Origin: Acidobacteriota bacterium
GTDB lineage: Bacteria > Acidobacteriota > Aminicenantia > Aminicenantales > Saccharicenantaceae
NCBI GenBank assembly: GCA_014894455.1
Contig: JADBLN010000063.1
Location: 42,913 to 80,722, forward strand
DNA length: 37,810 nt
Reading direction: 5' to 3'
In this document: positions 245-35,716 of the stretch, piece by piece
How positions within the stretch are numbered: the first letter of the stretch is position 1
Layout: every line of letters begins with the position of its first letter
Position numbers and translations under genes: made by a program
The notes under the pieces: generated by a model
Told to the model about the DNA's origin: nothing
Databases searched by the model: none
The model's input: the letters and a program-made list of their open reading frames with translations, nothing else

Positions 245-2071
245 CTACCTGACTCCAGCGACTCTCCGGCTTGGTTCCTGCGTACGAATGAAGAAGAGCG
301 CATCCACCACCTCGCTCCACCGTGCGCGATATGTCTGAAAGAGGGGACGCGCTGCGAACGTTCCTCCAAGCCATTGGCCGGCCTCGCGGGCTTTTCGGAG
401 GTTAACGAAGCCGAACTTGTAGCCCACCGCATCCATCAGTTCCTCGAACTCAAACGAGGGATCCTGGTCGGCCACGACGGTCTGTACGAGGCCTTCCATG
501 TCGCCCCTGCAAGTGATGCACCCGGACGCGCCGGTGTACGACGTCATTCCGATCACGAAGCTCTCGTCGCCAAGGACTTCCCACACGCCCTGTCCCATGC
601 TGAAGCCGGGGTTCCCGCCAAGGACCGCAACGCGTGGGGTCCGCATCGTGTGGGCTGTGTGCGCCCACGCGATAATCTTTTGCCCCCGATAATAGGTATT
701 GGCGAGCCACACGAGGTTCTCGGCCATCTGGCGATCCCGGGTTGCGCCGTCGCCGGCCGTGCCCGGAGCGTTGCGTCGCTGTCGGAGGTCCAATCCTGCC
801 TGTAACGCGGCACTGCGGAGCACTTGTGCCCAGAATTGGCCCTCGCGAGTCTGGACCGATCTTTCCACGGCCGTCACGGTGCCCCGCAGGTTCTGGACAA
901 ACTCTGCTTCCTCGGCTGGCTCCGGCAGGTGTTCGCGATCAGGCGCGAAGCGCCCCTCGACCACTGCGACCAGAAACCTGGATAGTCGGCTGTCCGCATG
1001 GGCGAGCGGACTGTCGATTCTCGCTCGGGTGAGGAACTCCCGAAGGCTGGGAAGCATGGAATCTTGCGACGCCGGATCGTAGAACTGGCTGTCGAAGCCC
1101 GTCAATTCCAATGGATGATCGGTCTGCGCCGACGCGGCGAGATATCGGATCAGCGGCTGCATCTGCTCAGACCATCCCCACACGCGGAACACGCCCCGGA
1201 GAAAAGCATCGCGAGGTTCAGCCTGCGTCGGCAAGGCGCGCCAAGCCGCAGCGGTCCCAAAGAGTCCGGACTCGAAAGCGAGCACATCAAAGCCCATCTC
1301 GCGGTGCAGAAATTTCACCAATCTCGTCTTCGCTTTAAGATCGGCCCCGTTGCCGTGATCCGACTCGCCGAGCAGCACGACTCGGACACCACGCAGTTGC
1401 TCGCGCAGGAACGCGAGGTCGGAGAAATCCTCATCGTCAGGTTCGATTGAGCGAATCGTAGCCGCATTCTTCCGGAGCCATGCCGTCCGTGGGTCGTTAC
1501 TCAGAGACTGCCGGCGAGCCGCCCGTGTCTTCGCTGGGACCACCTCGTCTATCTGCATCATGAATGGAGAGCCCCCGTCCGCCCAGCCAGTAAGTTCAAT
1601 GATGTACCACCCCGACGCAGGAACCTCGAATGTAAGCGGAAGGCCGGGATACGAAGCGCCCTCGAACGCATAGGTCCAATTCTCCAGGATCGGCTTGTTG
1701 TGGTGTGGCTCCAATACTCGCGTTCGCGCGTATCCGGCACCGATGTCGAGCGAGGCACGAACGAACTCGCCCTTCCGCGCGAACATCGCGAAACACTTCA
1801 CCTTGCCAGTGTCGAGACGGCCGGTCTGGACCGTGAGCGGATCCAACCGCGGGAGCAATTCTAAGTTCGTAGCACACGTGGTACCGCGCTCGGGGTAAGC
1901 CGTGTGGCCTTGATTTTGGTCCTTAGTCTGAGCATCTTTCGAAGGAGAACACGCACAGAGAAAGATGGCACAAATAACACCCACGCCAAACAAGAATTGG
2001 TTTCTGACGGATAAGAAATTCCTTTTTCGCGCCGCGCGCATCCACCAGGAAGAAGGCTGTGTTTGGACCAT
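245..2071 (-). CDS. Erythromycin-esterase-family lipoprotein
   Basis: This 608-residue protein belongs to the erythromycin esterase family by its core motifs: GESDHG at residues 235-240 (Glu236, His239), FESG at 266-269, and a late AWAHTAH segment. In studied members these Glu/His positions form the metal-independent hydrolase site that opens macrolactone rings, but most chromosomal relatives have unknown substrates. The N terminus has a basic start, a hydrophobic stretch and the lipobox FLCAC with Cys41, so export and lipid anchoring are likely. About 190 residues between lipobox and esterase domain form an extra region, perhaps a beta-rich pre-peptidase-like domain. Met11 is an alternative start that keeps the signal peptide. 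The next gene upstream on the same strand is the radical SAM gene 28 bp away, so co-transcription is possible. Antibiotic resistance should not be assumed. Confidence 0.85.
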   Translation of the reverse strand: MVQTQPSSWWMRAARKRNFLSVRNQFLFGVGVICAIFLCACSPSKDAQTKDQNQGHTAYPERGTTCATNLELLPRLDPLTVQTGRLDTGKVKCFAMFARKGEFVRASLDIGAGYARTRVLEPHHNKPILENWTYAFEGASYPGLPLTFEVPASGWYIIELTGWADGGSPFMMQIDEVVPAKTRAARRQSLSNDPRTAWLRKNAATIRSIEPDDEDFSDLAFLREQLRGVRVVLLGESDHGNGADLKAKTRLVKFLHREMGFDVLAFESGLFGTAAAWRALPTQAEPRDAFLRGVFRVWGWSEQMQPLIRYLAASAQTDHPLELTGFDSQFYDPASQDSMLPSLREFLTRARIDSPLAHADSRLSRFLVAVVEGRFAPDREHLPEPAEEAEFVQNLRGTVTAVERSVQTREGQFWAQVLRSAALQAGLDLRQRRNAPGTAGDGATRDRQMAENLVWLANTYYRGQKIIAWAHTAHTMRTPRVAVLGGNPGFSMGQGVWEVLGDESFVIGMTSYTGASGCITCRGDMEGLVQTVVADQDPSFEFEELMDAVGYKFGFVNLRKAREAGQWLGGTFAARPLFQTYRARWSEVVDALFFIRTQEPSRRVAGVR

Positions 2072-2099
2072 TTTTCAGTGATGAGGTCCCCCCAGCAAT

Positions 2100-3794
2100 T
2101 CATCCCAACCGAGGAATCCTATGCTCCACCCTTCGACTGGGAGGCTGGAGAACGATATCCTCGTACCCGTTCGCTCTCCTGAACCACAACCTGGCTTGCT
2201 CCTTGAGACCGGTGAATACCAGGAAGGCCCCCTTCAGGATCACCCCAGGGCCGGCTTTGCCAAGAACCTTCGCGTACAATCTCATCGCCTTCCGGGCCTT
2301 GATCCTGGCGGCCCTGTTGGGTGCGAACAAGAGGGCGGGTAGCAGGACGGGACGCAGGTTCAAGGCGATCTTCTGGAGACGTCTGATCCTCTGGCCCATG
2401 AACACGTCGTCAGCGGCATGGTCGCTCTTCTCGTATCGCAGACTCTCGGGGTTCCAGACAAGCGATTCCGCCTCCCTCCGTGTTCGATCGGCCTCGGCCT
2501 TCGCATAGCCCCGGATGGCGGTGATTGCCATATTTAGGATACCAGGGCCGCTGACCTCGTACTTCCTCCTGAATGCTTCTTTCAGCAGGTTGGCCTGTTC
2601 CTTTGGATCAACGATGTACGGGTGGTTCCAGTTCAGTTCTCCCGCGCCGTGGTGGAAGCGCCAGTGGATGTCCTTGAGCCTTCCCTCCCCGGCCAGCCTG
2701 GCATACAAGCCGGTGCATGGGCTGTGTGTGTAGTTCATGAACTGGGTCATGTCGGAACCGAGACCGACGATCCAGTCGATGTCTTCCCTGATGGCCGCTC
2801 GGTCGTGGTGGTCAAGGAAAAGGATGCCGGACGTTATCACCGAGATGCCGTTTTCCTGGAGTTGGGCGATCAGCTTGCCGATGTCGATGTCCTTAAGCTT
2901 CGCATGGGTGTTGGCCTTTGACTCGACACCGATCCAGATCATGTGGACGCCGAGTCTCACGAGGAAATCGATGCCCACATCGGTGATCACCTCGGCCGAG
3001 GAGAAGATGTCGAAGACGTAGGCCTTCCCCTGGGCCTCCAGCCGGGCCAGAAGCTCCCTGGCTCGTTGGGGCTTCTTGAGGAAATTCTCATCGATAATGG
3101 TAAATCCCCTTGAACCCAGTTCCTTTTCGGACTTCAGACAGGCATCGAACACCTGGGCCCCTGTCGACATAAAGGGCACATACTCATTGCCGTACTTGAA
3201 GGAGGTGGCGCAGAACTCACAGGCATTGTTGCACCCCACCCCGGTGAGCAGGATCGACCCCTTCGTGGGAGTTCTTGCCCCGTAGATGTACTCGTAAGCT
3301 GGGCCAAAGAGGGCAGGATGCACGATAGGTGCCGATGGGTCTTCCCCGAAGTACCGCCTCAGCCACTCCACACCCTCGCCTTCGCAGACACCGTCGTGGG
3401 GTACGATGGTCTCCAGGGCAGGGACCATGGTGCCGAAGCCGCCCAGTATGATCTTCATCTCAGGGTGCTTCGATCGGATGTGCTCGGCCATCCTTCGGGC
3501 CTTCAGGATGTTGGGGACGATGAAGGAGATGCCCACGTGGGTGTAGCCCTTTTTCAGTTCCCTCGTGAATTCTTCCCAGGTGGGAAAATCGAGAACAGTT
3601 GCAGGCACCGAGACATTCTCCGCGAGCAGGTACAGCGGGAAGCTCCAGTAGGACTGCCGGGGCGAGTGGACGCCCTGCTGCCTCGTGATCTGGTTGTTTA
3701 AGAGTTCCATCTGCATTCCATTTCCCTCGGCGTAATCGTCCCTCACCCCGAAGGGCCCGAAGACAGAAACCAGAAGAAGTTTTATCGAGTTCAT
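2100..3794 (-). CDS. Cobalamin-binding-type radical SAM protein
   Basis: The 564-residue protein carries the radical SAM cluster motif CX3CX2C at Cys188, Cys192 and Cys195, which would bind a [4Fe-4S] cluster and S-adenosylmethionine. It is preceded by a Rossmann-like N-terminal region (about residues 60-150, with GISFIVPN, ILGGFGTMVPALE and DGVCEGEG) of the kind found in B12-binding radical SAM proteins (BchE/MiaB-like superfamily). A full SPASM or TRAM domain is not evident. The B12-domain DXHXXG motif is not obvious, so cobalamin use is uncertain. The substrate cannot be told from sequence. The start is an ATG at 3794 with a GAGG-like site upstream. The gene is followed by the esterase-like lipoprotein on the same strand. 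Confidence 0.85.
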   Translation of the reverse strand: MNSIKLLLVSVFGPFGVRDDYAEGNGMQMELLNNQITRQQGVHSPRQSYWSFPLYLLAENVSVPATVLDFPTWEEFTRELKKGYTHVGISFIVPNILKARRMAEHIRSKHPEMKIILGGFGTMVPALETIVPHDGVCEGEGVEWLRRYFGEDPSAPIVHPALFGPAYEYIYGARTPTKGSILLTGVGCNNACEFCATSFKYGNEYVPFMSTGAQVFDACLKSEKELGSRGFTIIDENFLKKPQRARELLARLEAQGKAYVFDIFSSAEVITDVGIDFLVRLGVHMIWIGVESKANTHAKLKDIDIGKLIAQLQENGISVITSGILFLDHHDRAAIREDIDWIVGLGSDMTQFMNYTHSPCTGLYARLAGEGRLKDIHWRFHHGAGELNWNHPYIVDPKEQANLLKEAFRRKYEVSGPGILNMAITAIRGYAKAEADRTRREAESLVWNPESLRYEKSDHAADDVFMGQRIRRLQKIALNLRPVLLPALLFAPNRAARIKARKAMRLYAKVLGKAGPGVILKGAFLVFTGLKEQARLWFRRANGYEDIVLQPPSRRVEHRIPRLG

Positions 3795-4008
3795 GTGAAT
3801 TCATCCTCGTCATCGACGGATCATTTCGAAATAGCAATTGACCTATTAATAGAATGCCAAGGTAGGAATGTCAAATCTCCGATCTCGATGGCTGCCAAGT
3901 CGGCGAGGAAGAGAGCCCAGGCTTCTAGCACCTTCAGGTGGCGAGGCTGTGAGTAGCGGCGAGGTCTAAGTCTCTGATTTTGGAGCCCTATATGGGGGGA
4001 ACCGATGG

Positions 4009-4064
4009 AGCCAGCCAGAGGGATCGAACCTCCGACCTGCTGATTACGAACGAACTGCGCTAGA
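4009..4064 (-). pseudogene. Decayed tRNA-Thr 3' copy
   Basis: Bases 4009-4050 match the 3' part of the intact tRNA-Thr (9661-9702) with one mismatch (G to C at the eighth base) and in the same orientation. The match covers acceptor, T arm, variable loop and the anticodon-side half of the anticodon arm. Beyond 4050 similarity drops quickly, with a weak continuing resemblance (TAG-GCAG) into the D arm. The 5' acceptor strand is absent, so it cannot fold as a working tRNA. It is either an attachment-site remnant of an element that used the 3' end of tRNA-Thr, or a decayed tRNA copy. The rest of 3795-4132 shows no gene. Confidence 0.8.
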
Positions 4065-4132
4065 AGGGCGACCCCATAAATATTCCATCTTCCAATCCTC
4101 TGTTCGACAAAATTCAATGCAGGAAGAATAAA

Positions 4133-4921
4133 ATGAAGATGTGTTTGACGAGAGCCAGCCTTGTCCTCTTCGGAGTCGCTGTTGCCTGGTTCTCCGGATG
4201 TCAAGCGGGCGTCCGAGTCATTCCTCCCTCCGCTCCTCCCGCAGCCCCCGCTCCCGCCGCGCCAAGCGCCGCCGTGGCGCGGACGGGCTACACCGTGCAG
4301 GTGGGCGCCTTCTCCATCCTGGACAATGCTCGACGGCTGGCCCAGGCCCTGAACGACATCGGCCTGGATGCTTATTATTTTTCACAGGGGTCGGGGCTCT
4401 TTAGAGTTCGTTTCGGGGACTTCCCTTCCAGGGACGCCGCCGTCCGTGAGGCCAAGCGACTTCTCGAGCTAGTGCTCGTCGAGGACTACTTCATCGTCGG
4501 CCCTGAGGATCACCCCGTTTATAGGCGGAGCTTGTCGGGAGAGGACCTCCGGGAAAAGCTGGCGGCCACGGCGGAGAGTTTCGTCGGGGTGGAGTACACT
4601 TGGGGCGGAACATCGAGGCCCGAAGGCGTCGATTGCAGCGGACTAGTCCGGGCGGTCTACCAGCTGAACGGCCTCAGCCTGCCTCGATCGATGACGGATC
4701 AATACCAAGCGGGAACGACGGTCGCCCGGGACCAGCTGCAAAAGGGCGACCTCGTCTTCTTCTCCGTCTCTCCGGGCCGGCCGACATCCCATGTGGGGAT
4801 CTACGTCGGAGAGAACGTCTTTATTCATGCTCCGGGGAAAGGCAAAAAGGTCCGCGAGGAGTCTCTCGACGGCCTTTATTTCAAGGAGCGTTTCTCCGGA
4901 GCCAGAGCCTACCTGAACTAG
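4133..4921 (+). CDS. SPOR and NlpC/P60 lipoprotein, cell-wall hydrolase
   Basis: This is a probable envelope lipoprotein that cuts peptidoglycan stem peptides. The signal peptide ends in the lipobox WFSGC with Cys23. A Pro/Ala-rich linker (about 30-48) leads to a SPOR domain at about 52-122 (YTVQVGAFS... FRVRFGDF), which binds denuded glycan strands at division sites. The NlpC/P60 domain (about 140-262) has catalytic Cys168 in DCSG, His220 in SHVGIYVG and the polar third residue His232 in IHAPG. The ATG at 4133 follows an AGGAAG ribosome site. Start codon, domain order and length fit a complete gene. It lies just inside the possible tRNA-Thr-bounded block, although its base composition resembles the chromosome. 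Confidence 0.9.
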   Translation: MKMCLTRASLVLFGVAVAWFSGCQAGVRVIPPSAPPAAPAPAAPSAAVARTGYTVQVGAFSILDNARRLAQALNDIGLDAYYFSQGSGLFRVRFGDFPSRDAAVREAKRLLELVLVEDYFIVGPEDHPVYRRSLSGEDLREKLAATAESFVGVEYTWGGTSRPEGVDCSGLVRAVYQLNGLSLPRSMTDQYQAGTTVARDQLQKGDLVFFSVSPGRPTSHVGIYVGENVFIHAPGKGKKVREESLDGLYFKERFSGARAYLN

Positions 4922-5092
4922 CCCCCTCCCCCTTACTTGGCTTGAAGATATCACCGATAAGGGAAGTCAATCAATGGGAGGCAGATATGCCGGAATCACG
5001 CGTCAGGGGGATCATCTGTCCGTCAGCCCAGCCCGCCGCGTCACCCAACCTCAACGTCCATCTTGGAATGGGTCTCTGCCGGAAACGCTCGG

Positions 5093-5788
5093 CTATTTAG
5101 TTTTCTCCCTAACGATATTCTTATAGGACAAAACCGGGAATGCGTACGGCTTTGTGGACTTGTCGAACTCGTCGCGAAAATCCTTCCCTCTTAAGTCACA
5201 GGCAGCGATCACCAGGTCAAGGAACTCTTTTATCAAAATGGTGGTTCCCTTGTCTGCGGAAGAGGCCACCGGGGACCTGGGAAGGCCCTCATAGACATAG
5301 ACCTTCCCTCCCCGGAAACGGAATTCCTCGATCTTGTCGGTCACGTCCACTCTCCGATAGCCGCGCTCCCTTTTGTCGAGGCTGAGCAGCTCATCGTTGG
5401 TGATCAGATACAAAATGCCGTTGATCCAGCCCTTTTTCTTGGGATAGATATTTAGTTCCGCAGCTCCGATGATAGGAACGCGCTCCGTGTCGCGCAGGAA
5501 ATACGCATCGATCTTCTTGGCACCCGCCGCGATCGCTTGGGGGTCGTTCCAAGGGCGAACGCATGTCCACACCCTCTCATAACCCGCTAGATGAACTTCA
5601 TGGATTGGACCCTCGTATTTACGCCCCAGCGTCTGTTCCATGCTCGGCAGGGAGATCAGGGAACCGTAGGCGATGATTCCCACGGAACCTTCAGGTATTC
5701 TTAGTATGCTTTTTCTTTTCGTTGCGAGACCGAACATGGAGAACAAGAACAAAATGCAGAGGAATATGCCAAGATATCTTCTCGTCAT
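5093..5788 (-). CDS. Gamma-glutamylcyclotransferase-like protein
   Basis: The protein (231 aa from the ATG at 5788) has an N-terminal membrane segment or signal peptide at about residues 5-22. A gamma-glutamylcyclotransferase-like fold follows, marked by GIIAYGSL at 37-44, the substrate-loop signature of the family, and by LDKRERGYRRVDV downstream, which resembles the LDxxEGxxxGxYxR/V region. Relatives convert gamma-glutamyl amino acids to 5-oxoproline or cleave gamma-glutamylamines, but this divergent, secreted or membrane-anchored form may do something else. I could not place the catalytic glutamate with certainty. Start choice rests on a strong AAGGGGTGA ribosome site before 5788; a TTG further upstream at 5899 would add 37 unlikely residues. 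The spacer 4922-5092 shows nothing else. Confidence 0.65.
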   Translation of the reverse strand: MTRRYLGIFLCILFLFSMFGLATKRKSILRIPEGSVGIIAYGSLISLPSMEQTLGRKYEGPIHEVHLAGYERVWTCVRPWNDPQAIAAGAKKIDAYFLRDTERVPIIGAAELNIYPKKKGWINGILYLITNDELLSLDKRERGYRRVDVTDKIEEFRFRGGKVYVYEGLPRSPVASSADKGTTILIKEFLDLVIAACDLRGKDFRDEFDKSTKPYAFPVLSYKNIVREKTK

Positions 5789-6060
5789 TGAATCACCCCT
5801 TCTCCTCTCATAAAGAAAGATATCGCCGCCCATGACAGATGTCAAGATATCTAGATTCAAGAGGATCATTTTAGGGGATGAGGTCCCGCGCGCCGGCAAC
5901 GCGGACTACGAGCCCTCCGAAACGCCGCTCATAGGCTTTCCGGATCCCCGGGCAGACGAGGTAATTCCGGCCGCTGTTTCATTCGAACAGATCTCTTGTT
6001 TTTATACGCAAAAACGCTATAACAGCATATACAATAATACAAATAAGATAGAATACAGGC

Positions 6061-6118: not shown

Positions 6119-7465
6119 ATGTTCAAGAGGGAGATCCTGCGGCGACTTGGCGACTGGAAGAACAAGCCGGACCGCAAGCCCCTCATTCTCCGCGGCGCGC
6201 GACAGGTCGGGAAAACCACGGCCGTGGAGCTTTTCTCGACAGCCTACGACCAGTTCATTCCCCTCAACCTCGAGAAACCCGAGGAGGCGAAGCTCTTTGC
6301 CCGGTCATTGCCGGCCGCTGACCTCCTGCAGGCCATACGGTTTTCCAAAGGGCTCCCGAGCATCCAGGGCCAGACGCTTCTGTTCCTCGACGAGGTCCAG
6401 AACTCTCCCGAAGCTGTCTCTTCATTGCGGTATTTCTATGAAGACCTCCCCGAGCTCCACGTGATCGCGGCCGGATCGCTCCTCGAGATCGCCCTGACCC
6501 AGAAGCAGATCGGCATTCCAGTAGGACGAGTTGAATACGCCCTGATGTCCCCACTTTCCTTTCGGGAGTTCCTCGAAGCCACGGGCGAAACGCAGGCCCT
6601 CGAGGCCCTGGACGTCATTCCCGCCCCTGTCTTTGCCCTTCCCCGGCTGATGGATCTGTTTCACCGATATGCCCTTGTCGGCGGCATGCCCGAGATCGTG
6701 GCGCATTATGCCGGGAATCGCGACGCCGTAGCCCTCGCGCCGCTCTACCGCTCTTTATGGACATCCTTCCTGGACGATATCCCCAAGTACGCGCGTAACG
6801 AGACGATGAAACGCGTTATCCGGCATTGTCTCGAGGCGGCCCCGCTGGAGGCCGGCGAACGGATCAAGTTCGCCGGCTTCGGCAAATCGAACTACCGTTC
6901 GCGGGAGGCCGGCGAATCCCTGAGGACTCTCGAACAGGCCATGCTCCTTCACCTCCTCGCCCCCACGACCTCCACGGAGATCCCCCTCATCCCCGACCGC
7001 CGGAAGTCCCCCAAGCTCCTGTTCCTGGATATCGGTTTGATCAACTTCACGGCCGGAATCCAGGGCCACTACTTCGAATATCCCGATCTTTATTCATTCT
7101 ATCGCGGCCGGATCGCGGAAATGATCGTCGGGCAGGAGCTGATTGCCGCGGATCCCGAGCAGCACAAGCCTGTCTTCTGGGTCAGAGAAAAACGCCAGGC
7201 CCCCGCGGAAGTTGATTTTGTGCTCCAGCATGGAAGCCTCGCCGTCCCCATCGAGGTCAAGGCCGGCGCGAAGGGCACGCTGAAATCACTCCACCAATTC
7301 ATCAACAGGTGCCCCCACGGATTCGCCGTCCGGCTTTACGCGGGCCCCCTCGAGATCGTCCGGACAAAAACGCCGGAAGGCAAGGCTTTTTCCCTCCTCA
7401 ATCTTCCCTATTGCCTCGCGGGAAAGCTCCGGGCCTACATCCGCTGGATGATCGAAAGCGCCTGA
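6119..7465 (+). CDS. AAA_14/DUF4143 family ATPase
   Basis: The 448-residue protein is a typical member of the AAA_14 plus DUF4143 family. The Walker A motif GARQVGKTT lies at 26-34 and the Walker B motif TLLFLDE ends at Asp90-Glu91. The C-terminal half contains the DUF4143 region, with EVDFV followed by PIEVKAG near the end, which has the look of a PD-(D/E)XK nuclease core. Members are abundant in mobile and accessory DNA, often as many paralogues, and their role is not established; a defence or mobile-element role is only inferred. It has its own promoter and a strong AAGGAGG ribosome site, and it lies alone between genes on the opposite strand. It is complete. Confidence 0.9.
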   Translation: MFKREILRRLGDWKNKPDRKPLILRGARQVGKTTAVELFSTAYDQFIPLNLEKPEEAKLFARSLPAADLLQAIRFSKGLPSIQGQTLLFLDEVQNSPEAVSSLRYFYEDLPELHVIAAGSLLEIALTQKQIGIPVGRVEYALMSPLSFREFLEATGETQALEALDVIPAPVFALPRLMDLFHRYALVGGMPEIVAHYAGNRDAVALAPLYRSLWTSFLDDIPKYARNETMKRVIRHCLEAAPLEAGERIKFAGFGKSNYRSREAGESLRTLEQAMLLHLLAPTTSTEIPLIPDRRKSPKLLFLDIGLINFTAGIQGHYFEYPDLYSFYRGRIAEMIVGQELIAADPEQHKPVFWVREKRQAPAEVDFVLQHGSLAVPIEVKAGAKGTLKSLHQFINRCPHGFAVRLYAGPLEIVRTKTPEGKAFSLLNLPYCLAGKLRAYIRWMIESA

Positions 7466-7536: not shown

Positions 7537-9300
7537 CTACTTCTTGTCCGCGCCCCGCTCAATCATGAACTCCCATTTGTAGATCAGATCCTTGGCCTCC
7601 CGGGCGTTCGGGGCGGCCGGGGAGAGCTCAAGATAGGCGTTCATGTGCATGATGGCTTGGCTGAACTTGCCGAGTTCCGCAGCAAGCAGCGCGGCGTCAT
7701 AACGGAGAGTGGGACAGAACGGGGCAGCGCGGAGGGCGGAGGTGTATTCGCCGAGGGCCCCTTCGAGGTTCTTTTCCTTGACCAGAACTTCGCCCCGCAG
7801 AGAGTATTTCCGGGCCTCCTCTGGAAGCGCGGCGAGCTCGGGATGGGCCGTGAGCAGGGCCGCCGCCCGGGACATGATCGCTTTCGATCCAGCTTGGTCG
7901 GCGATTTGCAGGGCCAGAGTGTATTCCCCGAGGGCACCACGGGGATCGCCCCCAGCTTCCAGGGAATTGGCCTTCTCCAAGTGTCCCTGAACGGCGGGCT
8001 TTAGAAGATCAGCGAGGATCCCGGCGTTCTTGACGAAGAGGAAATTTGTGGAGGACAGCGTGGGTCCCCCGATCAGAGCGAAGATTCTTTCGGCCTCCGT
8101 CACATCCCCTCTTTTGGCGTAAGCGATGGCCGCGAGGACGCGAGCCAAAGTGAAGTCGTTGTCCCTGATCGAGGAAAGTTGCTTGACGGCCTCGTCATAA
8201 CTCCCCCGGTCGAGCGCGACGACACCCGAGGAGAACAGTGACCAGTCATGTCCAGGTTCGATCGACCCGGCCTTCTCGGCGCTGCTCGCCGCCTCGTCGG
8301 CCCGGCCATTTTCCCGGCAAAGGAAGCTTCGAAGCCCGAGCACCTCGACACTGTCTTTGGGTTCCATCTTTCCGAGGAGCCTATCGGCCGCAGCGATTGC
8401 TTTATCCAGTTCCCCCATTCGAGCCCAGGTGTTCATCAGGGACCGGATCGGGACGGATTCGTCGGGGGCAAGCTCGGCGGCCGCTTGGTAATTTGCGACG
8501 GCCTCGGGGTAATTGCCGAGGCTGTAGAAGACATTGCCGAGCCGGTTGTAGGTCCAAGGATTCTTGGGGTTCAGCCCGATGCACTTCTTCAGCGGCTCAA
8601 CCGCCTTGGCGAAATCTCCCTTGCCCGTGAGCGAGTCTGCGAGTCCCACATAGGCGTTGGGATTGTCCGGGGCGAGCATGATGGCACTCTCGGCCGCGGC
8701 CTTGGCTTCGTCATATTTCTTCAACGCGACGTTGGAGAAGGCCAGCCAGATGAAGTTCTCAGGGTCCTGAGGGTTCACCCGAGCCTTCGACCGAAAGATC
8801 GAGGCGGCCTTTTCGTACTGGCCGGATGAATAAAAGGCCATGCCCGCCCGACTCTGGATCAAACCCATGCCTTGGACGATCTTCGCCGCGGCCTTGGCAG
8901 AGGCGCTACCGGCCCTTTCCGCCATGATCTTCATGCCCGCAATGGCCTGGTCGATATCGGCGCCCCGGCTGATTAGGAGGTCGATCATGTCGCCGTAGCC
9001 TTCCCCGGCGGCGCAACCGAGCGCCGTCCAGCCGTTCTTGCCCAGAGAGTTCAAGTCGGCGCCCCTGTCAATCAGGAGCTTGGCGATCTCCAGCCTGTTC
9101 TCGCTAGCCGCCCATATGAGCGCGGTGCCGAAATTCCATTCGTTGACGTCGGCCCCCTTATCCAGGAGCTCCTGGACCTTTTTGATGTCCCCCTTGTTGA
9201 CCGCCTTCTGCAGAGCCGTTATGCCGGAAGCGGTGCCGACGGTGATAAAGCCGATGGCGAGAAAAGCCGCTAACGCTCCGATATGCCTAAAGAGTTTCAT
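7537..9300 (-). CDS. Ankyrin-repeat and TPR exported protein
   Basis: From the ATG at 9300 (ribosome site GGAGG just upstream) the 587-residue product starts with a signal peptide (MKLFRHIGALAAFLAIGF...). Three ankyrin repeats follow at about residues 25-130 (ALQKAVNKGD, TALIWAASENRLEIAKLLIDRGAD and TALGCAAG types), then a long array of tetratricopeptide repeats to the C terminus (AGMAFYSSGQYEKAASIF, NAYVGLADSLTGKGDFAKAVEPL, YNRLGNVFYSLGNYPEAVANY and so on). Both repeat types mediate protein contacts, so a scaffold role in the periplasm is likely. No enzyme domain is visible. It runs convergently with the AAA_14 gene, with a 71-bp gap. A longer frame to 9387 lacks a better start. Confidence 0.85.
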   Translation of the reverse strand: MKLFRHIGALAAFLAIGFITVGTASGITALQKAVNKGDIKKVQELLDKGADVNEWNFGTALIWAASENRLEIAKLLIDRGADLNSLGKNGWTALGCAAGEGYGDMIDLLISRGADIDQAIAGMKIMAERAGSASAKAAAKIVQGMGLIQSRAGMAFYSSGQYEKAASIFRSKARVNPQDPENFIWLAFSNVALKKYDEAKAAAESAIMLAPDNPNAYVGLADSLTGKGDFAKAVEPLKKCIGLNPKNPWTYNRLGNVFYSLGNYPEAVANYQAAAELAPDESVPIRSLMNTWARMGELDKAIAAADRLLGKMEPKDSVEVLGLRSFLCRENGRADEAASSAEKAGSIEPGHDWSLFSSGVVALDRGSYDEAVKQLSSIRDNDFTLARVLAAIAYAKRGDVTEAERIFALIGGPTLSSTNFLFVKNAGILADLLKPAVQGHLEKANSLEAGGDPRGALGEYTLALQIADQAGSKAIMSRAAALLTAHPELAALPEEARKYSLRGEVLVKEKNLEGALGEYTSALRAAPFCPTLRYDAALLAAELGKFSQAIMHMNAYLELSPAAPNAREAKDLIYKWEFMIERGADKK

Positions 9301-9660
9301 GCCATCCTCCCGGTAAAATCTGTTCTGGCCAGGGCGAAGACGTCCGCCTATCCACACGCGTCGGACCGCTTTAGATCGAGCGGACACTAACGAGATTATC
9401 GTTTCCGTCGATTCCCCAGTCTAATGGACTTACAAAGCGAGTCCATCATCCGCTCAGGTGGAATGAGGGGTGATTTTTGCCAGGCAGCCATCATCGTCCC
9501 CGATGAGCGGCCCCCTCGGCTCCGGAACGAAAGCTGTCACTCTATCTCAGAAGAGTCGGGAATCGACCTGGCTTTGACTTCCCGAAGAGTTGGCAGACGA
9601 GGCCTAAGTGTCTCAGTTGTGTGAACTGATGCTAACAATAAGAAACAGGATAAAGGGCGG
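9301..9660. other. Gene-free spacer before tRNA-Thr
   Basis: I see no supported gene here. A 66-codon open frame at 9424-9624 has no ribosome site or family signature. At 9598-9620, downstream of the tRNA on its own strand, there is a sequence reading CTGAGACACTTAGGCCTCG. It resembles a CAGAGACTTAGACCTCG stretch beyond the decayed tRNA-Thr copy at about 3959-3976. Confidence 0.5.
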
Positions 9661-9733
9661 AGCCAGCGAGAGGGATCGAACCTCCGACCTGCTGATTACG
9701 AATCAGCTGCTCTACCGACTGAGCTACGCTGGC
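9661..9733 (-). tRNA. tRNA-Thr (anticodon CGT)
   Basis: The reverse strand folds as a full cloverleaf. The 7-bp acceptor GCCAGCG/CGCTGGC, D arm GCTC/GAGC, anticodon stem GCTGA/TCAGC with loop TTCGTAA, and T arm GGAGG-TTCGATC-CCTCT are all fully paired. The anticodon at positions 34-36 is CGT, which reads ACG threonine codons. The discriminator is T73 and CCA is not encoded. Its 3' end points toward the decayed copy at 4009-4050. Confidence 0.95.
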
Positions 9734-29919: not shown

Positions 29920-30944
29920 CGTCTCTCGCTCTCTCCCATTTTTTTGAGCTGGAAAAGGGTCAAACCCTCGCGAGCTAATATAGCATATCCCAGGACGCAT
30001 GTCACGGCGATCTGGACGGCGTGGGCGACCAGGGTCATGCCTGCGGCCCGGCCGGGGTCCAGGCGGAGGATGAGGACCATGCCCAGCTTGCTGAAGTAGT
30101 GGAAGCCGCCGATCATGCCCGGCGTGGGGATGGAGGCGCCGATGGCGGTCAGGAAGACGTAGGGGACGACGAGGAAATACGGCACGCGGACGTGGTAGGC
30201 GAAAAAGAGGATCCAGTAGAAGAGCATGATGCCCAGCCAGACGACCACCGAGAGCCCGGCGTAAAGGCCCAGCTGGCCGGGAGACCGGAAGAAATCGAGC
30301 CCGCCGATGAACTCGCGGAGGAGTCCGAGGACGGCCCCGCGGGCCTTTTCGGGAAGGCGTTTCAGGAGGAAGGCGACGACGCGGAGGGCCCGCTCCCGGA
30401 AGAAATAGAGGAGGAGGGTCAGGGTCAGGAGAGCTACGGCGATGGCGACGCCGATGGTCCCCCAGAAGGCCAGCCGCTTTCCGGCCTCCACGTCGAGAGG
30501 CCAGGCTCCGGAGAAGAGGGGCCGGGAGATGAGGAAAAGGCCCAAGAGCAGGCACATCGTGGCCAGGTCGAAGATGCGCTCGACGACAACCGTGCCCACG
30601 GCGAAGCCCGGCCGCAGGCCTTCCTTGCGGGCCAGGTACAAGGGCTTGACCAGCTCGCCGAAGCGGCCGGGGAAGACGGCGCTGACCGCGAAGCCGACGA
30701 TGTTGGCCGCAACGAGGTTCCGGAAGCGGACATCGATCTTCTCGCGGGCGACGAGGATGTGCCAGCGGGCGGCCCGGGTGATGAAGTGGAGGGCCGCCAA
30801 CGGGATGAGCAATAGGAAAAGGGGAAGGTTGACGTCGGCGATCTGGGCGGGGACATTCTTCCACTCGACGCTGCGGCCGAAAAAATAGAGGAAAACGACC
30901 ATCAGGACGATGACGACGACGATTTTCGGGAGGTTCCTTTTCAT
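29916..30944 (-). CDS. Flippase-like/lysylphosphatidylglycerol synthase TM-domain protein
   Basis: The product has about eight transmembrane helices and matches the integral membrane domain shared by MprF and UPF0104 proteins (lysylphosphatidylglycerol synthase TM region), with segments [48 protein letters not shown] and [11 protein letters not shown]. This is the lipid flippase-like half; the aminoacyl transferase domain is missing, which is common for stand-alone members. The start is placed at MKRNLPK (30944); an in-frame ATG at 30965 would add seven residues, and neither has a good ribosome site. It overlaps nrdR by four bases and probably heads the operon. tRNA-Gln is divergent from it. 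Confidence 0.85.
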
Positions 30945-31019
30945 CGGCGGGGTCCATGGTATCATGAAGCCCGCCGGGGCTCAACCGGGACCTGAAAGCG
31001 CCCGCGGGCATCTTCGGAC

Positions 31020-31048
31020 TTGAAATCGGCGGCGGATTTCTTTAAGAT
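31020..31048 (+). promoter_or_regulatory. Promoter of tRNA-Gln
   Basis: TTGAAA (31020-31025) and TAAGAT (31043-31048) are 17 bp apart. Transcription would begin about 6 bp before the mature tRNA 5' end at 31061. Confidence 0.5.
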
Positions 31049-31060
31049 AGTGGTCCCTGC

Positions 31061-31134
31061 TGGGAAGTCGTCCAACGGCAGGACTCATGACTCTGGATCA
31101 TGCAATCAAGGTTCGAATCCTTGCTTCCCAGCCA
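31061..31134 (+). tRNA. tRNA-Gln (anticodon CTG)
   Basis: The sequence folds into a cloverleaf. The acceptor TGGGAAG/CTTCCCA gives the T1-A72 pair typical of tRNA-Gln. The D arm is GTCC/GGAC, the anticodon arm CATGA/TCATG has loop CTCTGGA (anticodon CTG), and the T arm is CAAGG-TTCGAAT-CCTTG. The discriminator is G73, and CCA is encoded at 31132-31134. Its 3' half is duplicated at 37440. Confidence 0.95.
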
Positions 31135-31192
31135 ACTGATTCCCCATATTTTCCCCTGATAATTCAGAGACTTACGATTTTTACCTTTTAAG
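31091..31192 (+). repeat. Left attachment repeat (attL) with tRNA-Gln 3' half
   Basis: The first 44 bases are the anticodon-to-CCA part of tRNA-Gln and are identical to 37440-37483. The next 58 bases match with six differences. It includes the blocks TCCCCATATTTTCCCCTGAT and ATTCAGAGAC. Confidence 0.9.
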
Positions 31193-31197
31193 CACCA

Positions 31198-31223
31198 TTA
31201 GGCAGAATTAGGCGAGTTTAGGC
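31198..31223 (+). repeat. Three TTAGGC repeats at exact 10-bp spacing
   Basis: TTAGGC starts at 31198, 31208 and 31218, one DNA turn apart, on the same face of the helix. The array is just inside the left attachment repeat. Such helically phased arrays often bind integrase arm domains or accessory proteins; that role is inference. Confidence 0.7.
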
Positions 31224-31228
31224 ACAAT

Positions 31229-31249
31229 CTGTTACGTAGCGGTGACATG
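31229..31249 (+). repeat. Left copy of an internal end repeat (CTGTTAC-N-GTGACA type)
   Basis: CTGTTACGTAGCGGTGACA at the left end of the island matches CTGTTACATGGCTGTGACA at 37338 with three differences. Both copies lie in the same orientation and close to their attachment repeat, 37 and 82 bp away. Confidence 0.65.
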
Positions 31250-31349
31250 GAGGGAGAGGCTTGCCTTGCCTCCACAGCCAGTTCCTGTACTAAAATTGGC
31301 TTTCGAGAGTGGCTCCAGCCAATAAATTCGAGGGCTTGCGGAGGCAACA

Positions 31350-32507
31350 ATGAGCGATCATCTGAAAATCGTTATTAACCGAGAAGAACTCTATGAGCGG
31401 ATATGGCAGACTCCAGCCAAACAACTGGCGAAGGAATACCGGGTCTCAGATACGAGGCTGGCGGTAATCTGTAAAAAGCTAAGGGTACCAAAGCCTTCCC
31501 CTGGCTATTGGATGAAGATTAAACATGGAAAGAAGGCCCGCCGCCCTCCCCTCCCCTCGCTAGGGCCTGGCGAACAAGCCGAATTCGTGCACATCGTAGA
31601 TGAGGATCGCAAACGTCCCGTGGTGATTGACCCAGCTATACAAATACTGTTAGACAAGGTGCCCGCAATAAAGGTCCCCCAACGGCTCAATGATCCGGAC
31701 CCCCTCATCAAGAATGCGAGAGCGTGGCTGCGCAGACGCCCATATATTTATTCGGAGCCCAATCGCCTTCCGCACATCAGCCTCAACGTGTACCCAAATA
31801 GTATGGGTAGAGCTTTGCGGTTGATGGATGCACTAGTTAAGGGATTAAGAAAGCTTGGATACGATGTTCGGGGTGAAGATGCATCTAATAAAGACCAGTA
31901 TTTCGAGATCTTAGGCCAAAGAATTCGATTCCAGTTTAAGGAAAAAGCAAAGCAGATCGAACATGTATTAACAAAAGAGGAGATGGCCAGGAAGGAGCAG
32001 GGAAAGCCCGTCTTCACAAACAAGTACGATTTCCTTTCCACGGGACATTTTGAACTCAACTTAGATCCTGAAATCTGGGGAGCTGTGGGATACAAGAAGA
32101 AATGGTCTGATTCCTCCAGGAGACCCCTAGAGGGCCAGCTCAGTGACATCATTTTGGGAGTCATATCCCTAGCTGGTGAAATAAGGAAAGAAGCAATAAG
32201 CCAAAAGAAGGCTGAACAGGTAGCAGCCGAACAAAGGATCAAGAGAATCGAAGAAGAACGAAGGCAAGCTGAAGAAGAGGCCCGCTTTCGCGAACTTGAT
32301 AATTTGGTCACCAGATGGACAACGGGCATGCAGCTGAGGGCTTATGTTCAGGAATATACGAGACGTTTTATGGAGGGATCGTACTCCGACGAGGCGAGCC
32401 AAGATTTTAATAGGTGGCTATTATGGGCGAACGAATATGCTAACCGACTGGATCCCATAAATGCTTCGCTCGCCAGAATATCCGATATGTCTAAGAAGGA
32501 CAGATGA
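31350..32507 (+). CDS. Uncharacterised 385-aa protein, HTH-like N terminus
   Basis: I do not assign a function. The first about 70 residues look like a small helix-turn-helix or homeodomain-like unit (REELYERIWQTPAKQLAKEY, then VSDTRLAVICKKLRVPKPSPGYW), a pattern I have seen at the start of hypothetical proteins from mobile regions. The middle (about 110-280) is mixed alpha/beta and unrecognised. Residues about 285-320 form a charged coiled coil (QRIKRIEEERRQAEEEARFRELD) followed by a helical tail. A good GGAGG ribosome site precedes the ATG. An inverted repeat TTGGCT (31296) with AGCCAA (31317) lies upstream and could be an operator. It converges on the AbiEii gene with a 12-bp gap, a layout that allows antisense regulation. 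A defence or regulatory role is speculation from context. Confidence 0.75.
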   Translation: MSDHLKIVINREELYERIWQTPAKQLAKEYRVSDTRLAVICKKLRVPKPSPGYWMKIKHGKKARRPPLPSLGPGEQAEFVHIVDEDRKRPVVIDPAIQILLDKVPAIKVPQRLNDPDPLIKNARAWLRRRPYIYSEPNRLPHISLNVYPNSMGRALRLMDALVKGLRKLGYDVRGEDASNKDQYFEILGQRIRFQFKEKAKQIEHVLTKEEMARKEQGKPVFTNKYDFLSTGHFELNLDPEIWGAVGYKKKWSDSSRRPLEGQLSDIILGVISLAGEIRKEAISQKKAEQVAAEQRIKRIEEERRQAEEEARFRELDNLVTRWTTGMQLRAYVQEYTRRFMEGSYSDEASQDFNRWLLWANEYANRLDPINASLARISDMSKKDR

Positions 32508-32519
32508 AAAGGCATAAGC

Positions 32520-33932
32520 TCACTTGAATCTCGTCGTTACATAGATTCCTGCGCGGCTCGGACAGGGATAGCCTCGTTTATTCTTATGGCTGTTCAGAAC
32601 AGATTCATAGGATTTGTGGGTGAACCTTTTGCCACAAACGCTGCACCTAAATATATAGCTAGGCCCAGAAGCCATTTTAGGGCCCGCAGACCAACTAGAC
32701 GCATGTCTTGTTCTGCGTGGGCTCGCCGGAGCCAATCCTAGAGCCCGCCTTGTGGGTGGAGCAGAAATTGGACCTGTGCCAGTCAGCTCGATTGCATATC
32801 TGGGTACAAAGGGAGTCTTGGTGGCCTTCGCCCCCTCAATCCGATCAACCCTATATGATCTATTCTCTCCGGTATCATGTTTTACGGCATAGAGAAGAAG
32901 ATTCCCATCTTGAGTGCGTCGTAAAGAATAGGGCTCTATGAGACGATGATCTCCCTGATACGCTAAATCTACGCATAGCCGGTTTGACGCAGCATAACGG
33001 ATTACTTCCAATGGTTGCGCTAAGCCCCAAGCTTGTGCCACAGAAGATGGATGCCAGGAAGTATCAATTGCCTGGCCCATAGTGGGAATGGCAGCAGGAG
33101 CAGCTTTTTCGGCCGAACGATATAGCCAATCGAAGACTTCTGGGAGTTCCTGCCAGAACTGCTCAAAGGGCGGCAATACGGGCACCTGATGTCCCAACAT
33201 ATTTTCCCACTCAGACACTAACTCCTCACGTTCAGGCTTGTGCTCGAGGATTTCGATAGTAGGCATCGAAATCTCCTTATAGCGGCATTTCGCTTCAAGT
33301 GTACTCAGAATGGTAGCCCTGCCTTGTCTAGTATCATCATGGCGATAGAGATGGATCACATCATAAAGATCTCGAGGCCTTAAACGCTCCGCTAATGCCC
33401 TGATCTTTTCAGCAAATATCTCCTCAAAGCAGTAACATTGGACATGAATGCCTACATCAGGTTTATCTGAGTACGGATGGTTAACCTCTCGGATACACTG
33501 TTCTAAAACCAGGGCTTCGTTCGAAGTTAGATCTAACTTTACACGAGGCGGATCGCCTCCCCTTTGTAAAGGCCCGAGATAGGCTATCTTCCCTTGAACC
33601 GATGTCCTGCCGAGGGGACTCGTATAAACATCAAACCTGATCAGCTCGGGCGGAAATTCAATGCCAGCAGCGGTATATATCCAGCCTGCAATTTCCTTAA
33701 ATTGATTAACCAGAAAGCTCGAGTTTTGATGCTCGGCCAGTTTGAGCGTGAAATCCAAGTCTTCGGAGAAACGGTACGTCTCAAAATAGCACTTCTTAAG
33801 GCAAGTACCTCCCTTGAATACCCAGCTGGCACCGAGTTCGCCACTTTGTGCAATCCCGGCCAAGAGCCAACCGAGGATATAATCTTTCTCAATTATGTCT
33901 GGCGTCAGGCCAAACTTACCAGAGAAGTCCAA
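32520..33932 (-). CDS. AbiEii nucleotidyltransferase toxin with WYL-like domain and zinc finger
   Basis: Residues 1-290 form the AbiEii/AbiGii nucleotidyltransferase toxin domain: GLTPDIIEKDYILGWLLAGI, the KGGT motif at 40-43, and SEDLDF at 56-61 with the acidic metal ligands. Residues about 306-372 (LEVIRYAASNRLCVDLAYQG, LIEPYSL, RSYRVDRIEGA) follow the pattern of a WYL domain, a nucleotide- or DNA-sensing module. The C terminus (about 427-462) has Cys430, Cys433, His449 and Cys457, a zinc-finger-like pattern. The family's usual start reads MITRQEIL; here that register has ATC-ATC codons at 33953 and no ATG, so the TTG at 33932 is shown, though initiation may be upstream. The antitoxin gene ends at 33955, so the two are coupled. 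In known AbiE systems the toxin acts as a GTP-dependent nucleotidyltransferase and blocks phage growth; here that is inferred. Confidence 0.85.
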   Translation of the reverse strand: MDFSGKFGLTPDIIEKDYILGWLLAGIAQSGELGASWVFKGGTCLKKCYFETYRFSEDLDFTLKLAEHQNSSFLVNQFKEIAGWIYTAAGIEFPPELIRFDVYTSPLGRTSVQGKIAYLGPLQRGGDPPRVKLDLTSNEALVLEQCIREVNHPYSDKPDVGIHVQCYCFEEIFAEKIRALAERLRPRDLYDVIHLYRHDDTRQGRATILSTLEAKCRYKEISMPTIEILEHKPEREELVSEWENMLGHQVPVLPPFEQFWQELPEVFDWLYRSAEKAAPAAIPTMGQAIDTSWHPSSVAQAWGLAQPLEVIRYAASNRLCVDLAYQGDHRLIEPYSLRRTQDGNLLLYAVKHDTGENRSYRVDRIEGAKATKTPFVPRYAIELTGTGPISAPPTRRALGLAPASPRRTRHASSWSAGPKMASGPSYIFRCSVCGKRFTHKSYESVLNSHKNKRGYPCPSRAGIYVTTRFK

Positions 33933-33954
33933 GATCTCCTGTCGGGTGATGATC

Positions 33955-34761
33955 TCAGGCCTCTTTCATCCAGCTATCTGGCACCCAAATCCGCCAGCGA
34001 GTTATTAGCTTGCTAGTCTTAAGAACAGGATCGAGTTTAACAGTCCCTTTCGTAAGCCTGGCCGCACACACGCTTATGGCCGCTTTCTGGTCAGGACTAT
34101 AACGTTCTAGCAATAATCCAAGCCGCTTAAAAACAGCGCCATTGCTTAGGCGTTTTGCGTATTCGGTTAACTGATCAACATCCTTGCTCTCTGATTTCAG
34201 ATAATTAATGAGCATGTCCACGGTCGGGCGAATTCCGCCGCCAAGTTTCGGATTCGCCAGCAGGTCGAGGATTGTGCGGGAAGGATCCGAGATCGATATT
34301 TTTGCCTGTCCTCTCCATATTTGTTTCGTTCCAAATAGCGCCTTGTCCGAAATAGTGCAGAGCATAAAACTCGTTCCCTTTATGCTTAGATTGCGCTTCC
34401 TAGGCCTCTGAGTTGTCAGGACAACCACGGTACGGAAGATTTGCTCCGTAAGATCCCAATACCCTGCAGCCGTCCATCCTCCGATATAGCAGGGCGCGAA
34501 AAGACGGGCAGCCACAATCCATGGATCCTCAAGAGAAACGTCAGTAGTCCTTGACTCAAGGGGCACTCTCACGTACAGACCTCGTCTGACTCGTGATATC
34601 CAACCTTTCTTTGCCCAACGCGAAAGCATCTTCGCTGCATCGGTGGGGTTGATCTTCAATATTCCAACAACATCATCTACGGCTATTGTGCCTTTGGTTT
34701 CCCGGAAGATGGCAGAGAGTCTTTCTCTATCTTTCTTTCCCAATCCTGACATGGTTTCCAT
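33955..34761 (-). CDS. AbiEi-family type IV antitoxin
   Basis: The 268-residue protein matches AbiEi antitoxins, which autoregulate their operon and counter AbiEii without a direct stable complex (type IV). The first about 65 residues form a winged helix-turn-helix (FRETKGTIAVDDVVGILKINPTDAAKMLSRWAKKGWISRVRRGLYV). The rest is the antitoxin domain (SLEDPWIVAARLFAPCYIGGWTAAGYWDLTEQ, and VVVLTTQRPRKRNL). The ATG at 34761 follows an AGGTG site; Met4 is an alternative. The stop codon lies two bases short of the ATC codon that would begin the toxin in its usual register. A strong promoter with direct repeats lies upstream. Confidence 0.9.
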   Translation of the reverse strand: METMSGLGKKDRERLSAIFRETKGTIAVDDVVGILKINPTDAAKMLSRWAKKGWISRVRRGLYVRVPLESRTTDVSLEDPWIVAARLFAPCYIGGWTAAGYWDLTEQIFRTVVVLTTQRPRKRNLSIKGTSFMLCTISDKALFGTKQIWRGQAKISISDPSRTILDLLANPKLGGGIRPTVDMLINYLKSESKDVDQLTEYAKRLSNGAVFKRLGLLLERYSPDQKAAISVCAARLTKGTVKLDPVLKTSKLITRWRIWVPDSWMKEA

Positions 34762-34791
34762 GGTACACCTGAAGCGCCTTTATTCGTACGT

Positions 34792-34881
34792 TAGGTGAAT
34801 TATAGCGCATCGAACATACTTTAACAACAGCGCGTGCGCACCAACTCACGCAATAGGTGAACTATTACGCTTTCGATGTAC
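34792..34881 (-). promoter_or_regulatory. abiE promoter and candidate antitoxin operator
   Basis: On the minus strand -35 TTGTTA (34822-34827), a 17-bp spacer and a perfect -10 TATAAT (34799-34804) drive the abiEi-abiEii operon. A 28-bp direct repeat overlaps it, with copies at 34792-34819 and 34854-34881 matching at 19 of 28 positions and sharing TAGGTGAA and the ending TAC. The first copy covers the -10 element and the spacer. AbiEi winged-helix proteins autorepress through repeats in their promoter, so these are the natural candidate binding sites. Confidence 0.7.
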
Positions 34882-34916
34882 TTTTGCGCTTGTCAATTTG
34901 CTGATTCCAGGTGACG

Positions 34917-35140
34917 GGGTCCTCATTCAAAACCAAGCTTGAAGGAAAGTCCTTCGGAAACCGCATTAGGGAGTTTAACCGAACACCAGCAGATCGGCCA
35001 GCTCAAGATGGAAGTCGAGTGCCTAAAAAAAAAGTCACAGACGCTCCTGTCGCGATGAAGCGGGCCGAAGTGGAAAAAGAGACCACGACGATGTCCGTTG
35101 TCCGGCAATGCGGGTTGCTCGAGCAACTTATGACCTCTCA
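34917..35140 (+). pseudogene. IS3-family transposase remnant with frameshift A-tract
   Basis: One frame encodes the OrfA C terminus with the hallmark QIGQLKMEVECLKKK, ending at a TGA near 35060. The next frame starts OrfB (MKRAEVEKETTTMSVVRQCG, like the MSVxRQCxLLG start of the orfB product). Nine adenines at 35025-35033 form the slippery site where IS3 elements shift frame to make the fusion transposase. Everything before about 34917 and after about 35140 is gone, so it cannot be active. It shows an IS3 element once sat in the island. Confidence 0.75.
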
Positions 35141-35155
35141 ACCCCTGTCCGCTTG

Positions 35156-35215: not shown

Positions 35216-35277
35216 AGGGCTTATCCTCTCTTGAGTAAGGCCAGGGGGGGGACGGCGGGGCCGCGCCTTCCCGAATC

Positions 35278-35658: not shown

Positions 35659-35716
35659 TAGAACTCCTTCTTCAAAACTTTCGACTCCAGCCAGCGGTCG
35701 ACGTCGTTACGGAAGA

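Follow-up and report, generated by a model that had tools for sequence, protein, structure and literature searches.

Islands at tRNA-Thr and tRNA-Gln genes in a member of the Aminicenantia and an arm module that recurs beside many tRNA genes of the class

Introduction

Integrated islands at tRNA genes have been catalogued on a large scale, and in the Islander collection, according to the part of PMC4383910 used here, 2083 of 3919 islands have a crossover centred on the anticodon (site 'A'). The two islands described in this work resemble those of Islander, as far as that text characterises them, in that an intact tRNA gene stands at one end, the opposite end holds a displaced 3' fragment of the same orientation, and the crossover is placed in the anticodon loop (PMC4383910). 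Elements that are flanked by att sites and lack integration genes, as well as their accretion in tandem, are also known already from the portion of PMC5704250 considered; as with these elements, named CIMEs, segments reported here have att-like flanks, mostly without an integrase that could be found, and are stacked at one target gene. Excerpts from three other papers describe further relatives. The ssrA islands of Dehalococcoides are likewise tandem, have repeats of the 3' end of an RNA gene as their borders, and in some cases have no integration module (PMC3146451); the additive flexible islands of Alteromonas use a conserved tRNA gene as the target for the insertion of cassettes (PMC4119200); Methylophilaceae have recurring repeats of tRNA 3' ends, and tycheposons are tRNA-associated tyrosine-recombinase elements that carry cargo (PMC10872708).

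The present analysis concerns a stretch of 37,810 nt from a bacterium of the class Aminicenantia (the window), in which a tRNA-Thr and a tRNA-Gln gene each have a displaced partial copy. An earlier note on this DNA pointed to a block shared by the flanks of both and proposed that both sites had been used by related recombinases. This proposal is supported by the enrichment of a looser form of the motif behind tRNA genes of other genomes, and by an arm module that is found at both tRNA-Gln and tRNA-Thr(CGT). Both repeats are probably the attL and attR sites of islands that came from a single family of tyrosine integrases, whose members cross over in the anticodon loop.

Two islands in the window

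The first island starts at an intact tRNA-Thr gene (anticodon CGT; 9659–9733, minus strand, detected with ARAGORN), which is its target and has the loop TTCGTAA at 9702–9696. The cargo extends from 9387 to 4133, and the far end is a displaced tRNA-Thr 3' half (4050–4006, minus strand; 97.8% identity over 45 nt) that begins with the same loop, TTCGTAA, at 4050–4044. This half is adjoined by the block TTCCCCCCATAT (3990–4001, minus strand), which is related to TTTCCCC/TTTTCCC. Four cargo genes were recognised: a protein with SPOR and NlpC/P60 domains (4133–4921, plus strand), a protein of 268 aa with a weak GGACT-like match below the Pfam cut-off (5093–5899, minus strand), an AAA_14/DUF4143 protein that is the PADLOC candidate PDC-S01 (6119–7465, plus strand), and an ankyrin/TPR protein (7537–9387, minus strand). 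No internal halves were found in this island.

The second island has as its target an intact tRNA-Gln gene (anticodon CTG; 31061–31134, plus strand, detected with ARAGORN and Rfam), with the loop CTCTGGA at 31091–31097. A 102-nt repeat (31091–31192, plus strand) that starts at the anticodon loop and reaches 58 nt beyond the tRNA forms the proximal attL-like site; the distal attR-like site (37440–37541, plus strand) consists of a displaced tRNA-Gln 3' half with its flank and is 94% identical to the proximal one. A module of 61 nt with spaced repeats, which are presumed to be arm-type integrase sites, is located at 31187–31247 (plus strand). The cargo (31350–37074) encodes a protein of 385 aa without a family match in Pfam, PHROGs or PADLOC (31350–32507, plus strand) and, all on the minus strand, the type IV toxin AbiEii (32520–33932) and its antitoxin AbiEi (33955–34761), a membrane protein of 126 aa that matches phrog_12855 (35278–35658), a protein of 110 aa without a match in PHROGs or PADLOC (35717–36049), and a protein of 260 aa without a family match, whose N-terminus looks lipoprotein-like by eye (36292–37074). 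Directly behind this island come other DNA and then the end of the contig. This region (37548–37810) shows three related 19-nt copies of the TTCCGGTTCAAAGCGGCCA type and the start of an apparent IS-type element, which we take to be IS21-type, running to the contig end.

In both islands an intact tRNA gene is followed downstream by a displaced fragment in the same orientation. The repeat pairs have diverged (91–94% identical), and in each of them the exactly matching part opens with the first of the seven bases of the anticodon loop; judged from this border, the crossover would lie in the anticodon loop, a known subsite, in both cases. Over the 17 nt that precede the loop, 8/17 positions match for Thr and 3/17 for Gln, which gives Gln a sharp border and Thr a less distinct one. 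Attachment sites of integrated islands show the same start of identity at the loop. Fragments of tRNA genes can arise by routes other than integration. The partial copies might stem from plain gene duplication or from a decaying tRNA cluster, and the likeness of the Thr copy before the loop would agree with this. Such an origin without site-specific integration is nevertheless very improbable, given that exact identity in the window begins at the loop, that copies with the same orientation lie downstream in 26/26 pairs, that different cargo occurs at the same gene and that copies adjoin integrase genes, as described below. In neither of the window islands was a tyrosine integrase found (no Phage_integrase match on contig C12 or in window frames of at least 60 aa), which counts against the preferred explanation; no transfer-gene family was detected in the part of the cargo that was scanned, some ORFs of which had no match.

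A motif shared by the flanks of the two repeats

The three strings quoted in the earlier note, behind tRNA-Gln, behind the displaced tRNA-Thr copy and behind the intact tRNA-Thr, are all present, and the 10-mer CAGAGACTTA does flank both of the tRNA-linked repeats, 30 nt past tRNA-Gln (31165–31174, plus strand) and 29 nt past the CCA of the displaced tRNA-Thr 3' half (3976–3967, minus strand). The tRNA-Gln flank reads TTCCCCATATTTTCCCC ... TTCAGAGACTTACG on the plus strand, and that of the displaced tRNA-Thr copy reads GGTTCCCCCCATAT ... ATCAGAGACTTAGACC on the minus strand; behind the intact tRNA-Thr there is CTGAGACACTTAGGCC (9616–9601, minus strand), a degenerate form of the motif with two mismatches to the 10-mer. 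A further near-copy that the earlier note does not name, CAGAGACATA, occupies the equivalent position inside the distal tRNA-Gln repeat (37514–37523, plus strand).

The frequency of the 10-mer is no higher than chance, either in the window or in the genome. The whole assembly (2,948,251 bases in 125 contigs) has two exact copies of CAGAGACTTA, both in tRNA 3' flanks, versus an expected count of 5.6 with equal base use and three occurrences of the reversed pattern; the window has three matches with up to one mismatch, a number that was reached in 18 of 100 shuffles. In a pairwise comparison of 47 flanks from this genome, each made up of the 70 nt next after a tRNA gene or half, the pair formed by the Thr copy and Gln scored 23. 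The best pair of each shuffled set of flanks (20 sets) scored 22–30, sets of random stretches also reached 23 or more, and several other flank pairs of the genome outscore the Thr-copy/Gln pair. The shared 10-mer is by itself weak, its within-genome likeness being no better than that of the best chance pairs, and this counts against the preferred explanation. Because neither the counts nor the within-genome pair score exceed chance, the case is not rested on the 10-mer. In the same comparison the flanks of tRNA-Lys(CTT) and tRNA-Arg(ACG) scored 49 and those of tRNA-Thr(CGT) and tRNA-Arg(CCT) scored 34, and there may be more sites of such a kind in this genome.

Still, the 10-mer gains weight because its offset is nearly equal at the two sites (29 and 30 nt), because the flanks of the Thr copy and of Gln have a second common block (TTCCCC..ATAT), and because of the tRNA-Leu flank and of the relatives in other genomes. 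The flank of tRNA-Leu(CAA) carries CAGCGACTTAGGCC, and this tRNA gene is also the one that bears the tRNA-linked integrase of the genome. Among the distinct tRNA genes that are followed by 40 nt or more (43 genes), sequences with up to two mismatches to the 10-mer appear only at Gln, Leu and Thr; these three genes all carry islands, while the remaining 40 have been surveyed for islands only in part.

According to the earlier note, an enrichment of the motif near tRNA 3' ends would favour its reading. In other genomes this held for a looser form and failed for the exact one, since CAGAGACTTA occurs in none of the 204 distinct 3' flanks of tRNA genes or halves, and TCANNNACTTA occurs in 7/204, versus 2/5000 random stretches (Fisher p 4e-9). 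The pattern TCANNNACTTA was picked after viewing flanks that supply three of the seven matches; the other four, from three loci, were unseen, and by themselves they give 4/201 (p 3e-5), or p 5e-4 when counted as three loci. The matches in L324 and L325 sit behind tRNA-Arg halves that come directly after integrase genes. Similarly, TCAGNNACTTA was present in 4/204 flanks versus 0/5000 random stretches, and TTTCCCC/TTTTCCC is enriched behind tRNA halves (47/204 versus 89/5000). Controls with the reversed and the scrambled motif gave 0/204 and 0/5000 each, and are thus of little information. It is not the literal 10-mer that is conserved; more of the signal lies in the arm and the anticodon loop.

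These results bear on the possibility that two unrelated integrases made the islands and that the common CAGAGACTTA is a chance match picked by eye. A pair score of 23 beside best shuffled pairs of 22–30, the 0/204 for the exact 10-mer elsewhere, the lack of an arm at the Thr site of the window and a motif test that was blind only in part would all be in keeping with it. We regard it as unlikely, in view of the same offset together with the second common block, the third occurrence at tRNA-Leu, the enrichment of the looser motif in other genomes, and the arm that tRNA-Thr(CGT) has elsewhere in common with tRNA-Gln.

The 61-nt arm module across the class

The arm module was first met by similarity, the same block being found behind further tRNA genes. 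A search pattern that was built from the module alone, without tRNA letters, yielded 16 matches in a collection of genomes from 84,980 species: 12 in Candidatus Aminicenantes, two in Acidobacteria/Acidobacteriota, one in an unnamed bacterium and one in Treponema. In 10 of these 16 a tRNA detected with ARAGORN ends 28–56 nt before the arm. The Treponema match was discarded as a chance one: it is a TTTAGGCACC run and scores 16.6 bits with the arm profile. A phage origin of the arm is unsupported as well, with 0 matches of the pattern among the viral contigs of the collection searched. The alignment of 23 arm copies covers 61 columns and is nearly gapless. Using a sequence model, the arm was found in 47/142 genomes of the class and, at the threshold used, in none of the other 95; the genome studied here has one arm match, and none at its other tRNA genes.

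For 76 arm copies, from the window and from 60 stretches that are the better-scoring part of the matches listed, the neighbourhood was examined. A tRNA 3' half lies within 150 nt of the arm in 62/76 copies, versus 1/380 control positions, and at 14/76 no half was found within that distance; these 14 copies, like the 95 genomes without an arm match, count against the preferred explanation. The 62 tRNA-linked arms comprise 33 at intact genes and 29 at displaced halves, and represent 16 anticodons, the anticodon assigned to each half being that of its best match. When arm and tRNA are on the same strand, the spacing is 27–32 nt in 25/50 cases and 49–53 nt in 15/50, so that the two preferred spacings differ by about two helical turns. 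Another 12/62 arms are on the anticodon side and point away, and five of these are 67 nt from the loop. At two places (G004:C1 and G002:C7) one half is flanked by two arms, an arrangement like that of a complete attP, with arm, core and arm.

Because the arm is present both at the window tRNA-Gln and at tRNA-Thr(CGT) of other genomes (L251, L252, L276 and L291), one family appears to use both tRNAs. In a search with the arm profile the Thr site of the window has no arm, and this, together with the pre-loop likeness at that site, counts against the preferred explanation. By eye, a second arm-like type, TTTCAGCG...TCAA...TCTGTCAC...TTTGNCACA, replaces the TTTAAGCACC arm behind tRNA halves in L095, L104, L158 and L327, and is also seen behind the displaced tRNA-Leu half beside the integrase of the genome studied here.

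The position of the arm, often just behind tRNA genes and at preferred distances, is also what would be expected if the flank and the arm were a terminator of tRNA transcription, a processing signal or a small RNA. Such a role is scarcely credible for a module that adjoins displaced halves in 29/62 cases, is placed on the anticodon side and directed away from the tRNA in 12/62, and is matched at none of the remaining tRNA genes in the genome studied here; moreover, Rfam recognises only the tRNA in 30900–37810.

Integrases next to tRNA halves

Integrase ORFs are located beside tRNA halves in L095, L271 and L289. The three proteins scanned are of the Phage_integrase type with a SAM-like domain (phrog_1/phrog_216), and two of them have a longer N-terminal part. 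With regard to integron cassette arrays, which have an IntI integrase and attC sites, the bounding sites here are tRNA 3' halves, and the three integrases match the general Phage_integrase/SAM-like models. The scanned proteins keep the residues R, K, HxxRH, H and Y, at what we take to be the positions with known roles in tyrosine integrases. Their solved relatives by sequence include XerA, the HP1 integrase and an 'Int protein' (6en0). The extra N-terminal stretch of the integrases of L271 and L095 resembles, by eye, a fused domain of the HTH/excisionase type.

Relatives of these integrases, with distant members included, are present in 63/142 genomes of the class at E values up to 1e-20. In 20/30 integrase loci the ORF ends 21–46 nt before a tRNA half on the same strand, which is a displaced half in 16 loci and an intact gene in four; the different layout of these 4/20 counts against the preferred explanation. 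In L307, L312, L315 and L317 the integrase gene stops directly in front of an intact tRNA gene instead of a displaced half; these loci may follow another layout or be old elements sampled without their far end. A genus-wide search for Phage_integrase found a half of any kind within 600 nt in 6/41 ORF rows, many of the 41 having the appearance of chromosomal Xer genes, and when the integrase loci of the genus were compared with the window flanks no tail was found, just four weak matches of 22–23 nt to tRNA halves. At G000:C87:831-3177 (L035, L036 and L038) three tyrosine recombinase genes stand side by side and read the same way, presumably similar to a recombinase-in-trio element.

A quick tree built from 32 integrases, some on long branches, has a clade of 16 (95% SH-aLRT) whose members are associated with 11 anticodons, belonging to Arg (CCG, ACG and CCT), His, Gln, Ala, Met, Val, Glu, Asp and Leu, and it therefore seems that the targets of these integrases change often. 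The genome studied here has one member of the family (C62:30755-31672), in an interval of 9.6 kb between tRNA-Leu(CAA) and a displaced half, so that this island does contain an integrase. Just 2/61 arm loci, most of which reach about 4 kb to each side, have an integrase, and 29/30 integrase loci, with about 1.5 kb to each side, have no arm of exactly this type; the pairing of this arm with this integrase thus rests on few loci, a point against the preferred explanation.

Arrays, cargo and exchange between genomes

Between copies of one tRNA, 32 intervals of 0.4–9.6 kb were found (median 2.6 kb, a value biased to the short side since the stretches of about 3–13 kb under-sample long islands), and one of them holds an integrase. 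The intact gene and the half of one amino acid have the same orientation in 26/30 pairs, and the half is downstream in 26/26. Some stretches overlap (L162/L240, L101/L257 and L098/L248), which leaves 24 distinct pairs in the same orientation and two in the opposite one; the four pairs with opposite orientation all come from one place that was sampled twice. The cargo behind such sites includes sulfatase, peptidase C69, kinase-TPR, lactonase, amidohydrolase, GH127, HEAT, DUF488, GH3, catalase and NosD-like proteins. Homologous Ser/Thr kinase-TPR proteins (L100, L106, L144, L145, L161 and L162) are the largest cluster of ORFs in a comparison of 21 loci, and are situated at different tRNA sites, among others Thr, His and Leu.

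The content of the window islands was also found in other arrangements. A block of 932 bp (4004–4935) that comprises the NlpC gene and its tRNA-Thr half recurs in G004 with 97% identity but between other neighbours, and there the likeness stops 2 nt past the CCA. In G008 the AAA_14 gene is a separate cassette of 1.57 kb directly behind tRNA-Thr. The Gln site is conserved in G002 (86% over 173 nt) with different cargo, namely Septu and Druantia-like genes. Two cargo proteins are 97–98% identical in differing neighbourhoods of genomes of the same genus, and this near-identity suggests recent movement. The radical SAM gene that comes next after the Thr half (2058–3698) is 93% identical in G004 (L146, G004:C21 1-1702), and the similarity there breaks off some 20 nt short of a tRNA-Arg(CCG) half; this is possibly the same gene in the form of a cassette of another tRNA.

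The islands of the window might be dead remnants, fixed clusters whose integrases have decayed, a state that would be compatible with the origin preferred here. No integrase was found in them, the 91–94% identity of their repeats indicates divergence, and the Thr island has no internal halves even though AAA_14 is a separate cassette in G008. The 97–98% identity of the two cargo proteins in differing neighbourhoods of the genus, and the existence of integrases with open frames both in this genome and in the class, make it a doubtful reading, and the window islands may be mobile at present.

Proposed mechanism

Integration by the proposed family of tyrosine integrases would proceed as follows. 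The incoming circle would carry a tRNA piece of its own, which starts at the anticodon loop and includes the 3' end; after it would come TTTCCCC..., the region of TCAGNNACTTA and the repeated arm. Recombination in the loop would join the 5' half of the host gene to the 3' half of the element, so that the tRNA stays whole and the old 3' half of the host is displaced to the far end of the island; repeated rounds at one gene would give rise to tandem arrays. The N-terminal part of the integrase is predicted to hold the arm, at about 70 nt from the crossover (or about 95 nt in the second spacing class), and the catalytic part would hold the anticodon stem-loop as the core. The TTTCCCC and TCAGNNACTTA blocks, between the core and the arm, are candidate sites for the integrase, an excisionase or a bending protein. 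With a constant arm and a tRNA piece that changes, the family could move from one tRNA gene to another. Islands without an integrase would depend on one acting in trans, and the one at tRNA-Leu could have this function in the genome studied here.

A broader proposal, which we put forward as tentative and rather doubtful, is that a class-wide, integron-like traffic of cassettes of 1–4 kb takes place in the Aminicenantia via the anticodon stem-loops of tRNAs. One integrase family with a constant arm would accept almost any tRNA 3' half as the core, and the cassettes, mostly without an integrase and with genes for defence, hydrolases and kinases, would be moved in trans between no fewer than 16 anticodon sites.

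Significance and comparison with known systems

Starting from a likeness of ten letters, a map of the points at which genes enter and leave genomes of Aminicenantes could be drawn. A constant arm beside many tRNAs would provide a natural series to learn how a tyrosine integrase changes its target, and the arm could serve to detect islands that finders based on integrases would miss. Defence genes, known or candidate, are among the cargo of some of the islands (AbiE, PDC-S01, Septu and Druantia-like).

Several differences separate these islands from the systems mentioned at the beginning, as the excerpts of the papers describe them. Islander requires an integrase inside each island, and none was found in the window islands or in 31/32 intervals (PMC4383910). 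Unlike what is described for CIMEs, here one arm module is common to many tRNA sites across the class (PMC5704250). The islands of Dehalococcoides have a single target, the T-loop of the tmRNA, and a serine recombinase, in contrast with the many tRNAs, the anticodon loop and the tyrosine recombinase of the present case (PMC3146451). For Alteromonas and the Methylophilaceae, the portions of the papers considered do not mention an arm common to many isoacceptors (PMC4119200, PMC10872708). Tycheposons, compared here by description only, measure 4–200 kb and have a recombinase, whereas the intervals sampled in this work measure 0.4–9.6 kb and are mostly without one (PMC10872708). In a search by titles and abstract openings, which left most subscription literature outside, no paper on such a system in Aminicenantes/Aminicenantia was found. 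In comparison with these known systems, what seems to be novel is the use of one arm module over 16 tRNA anticodon sites throughout a class, by small cassettes that for the most part have no integrase.
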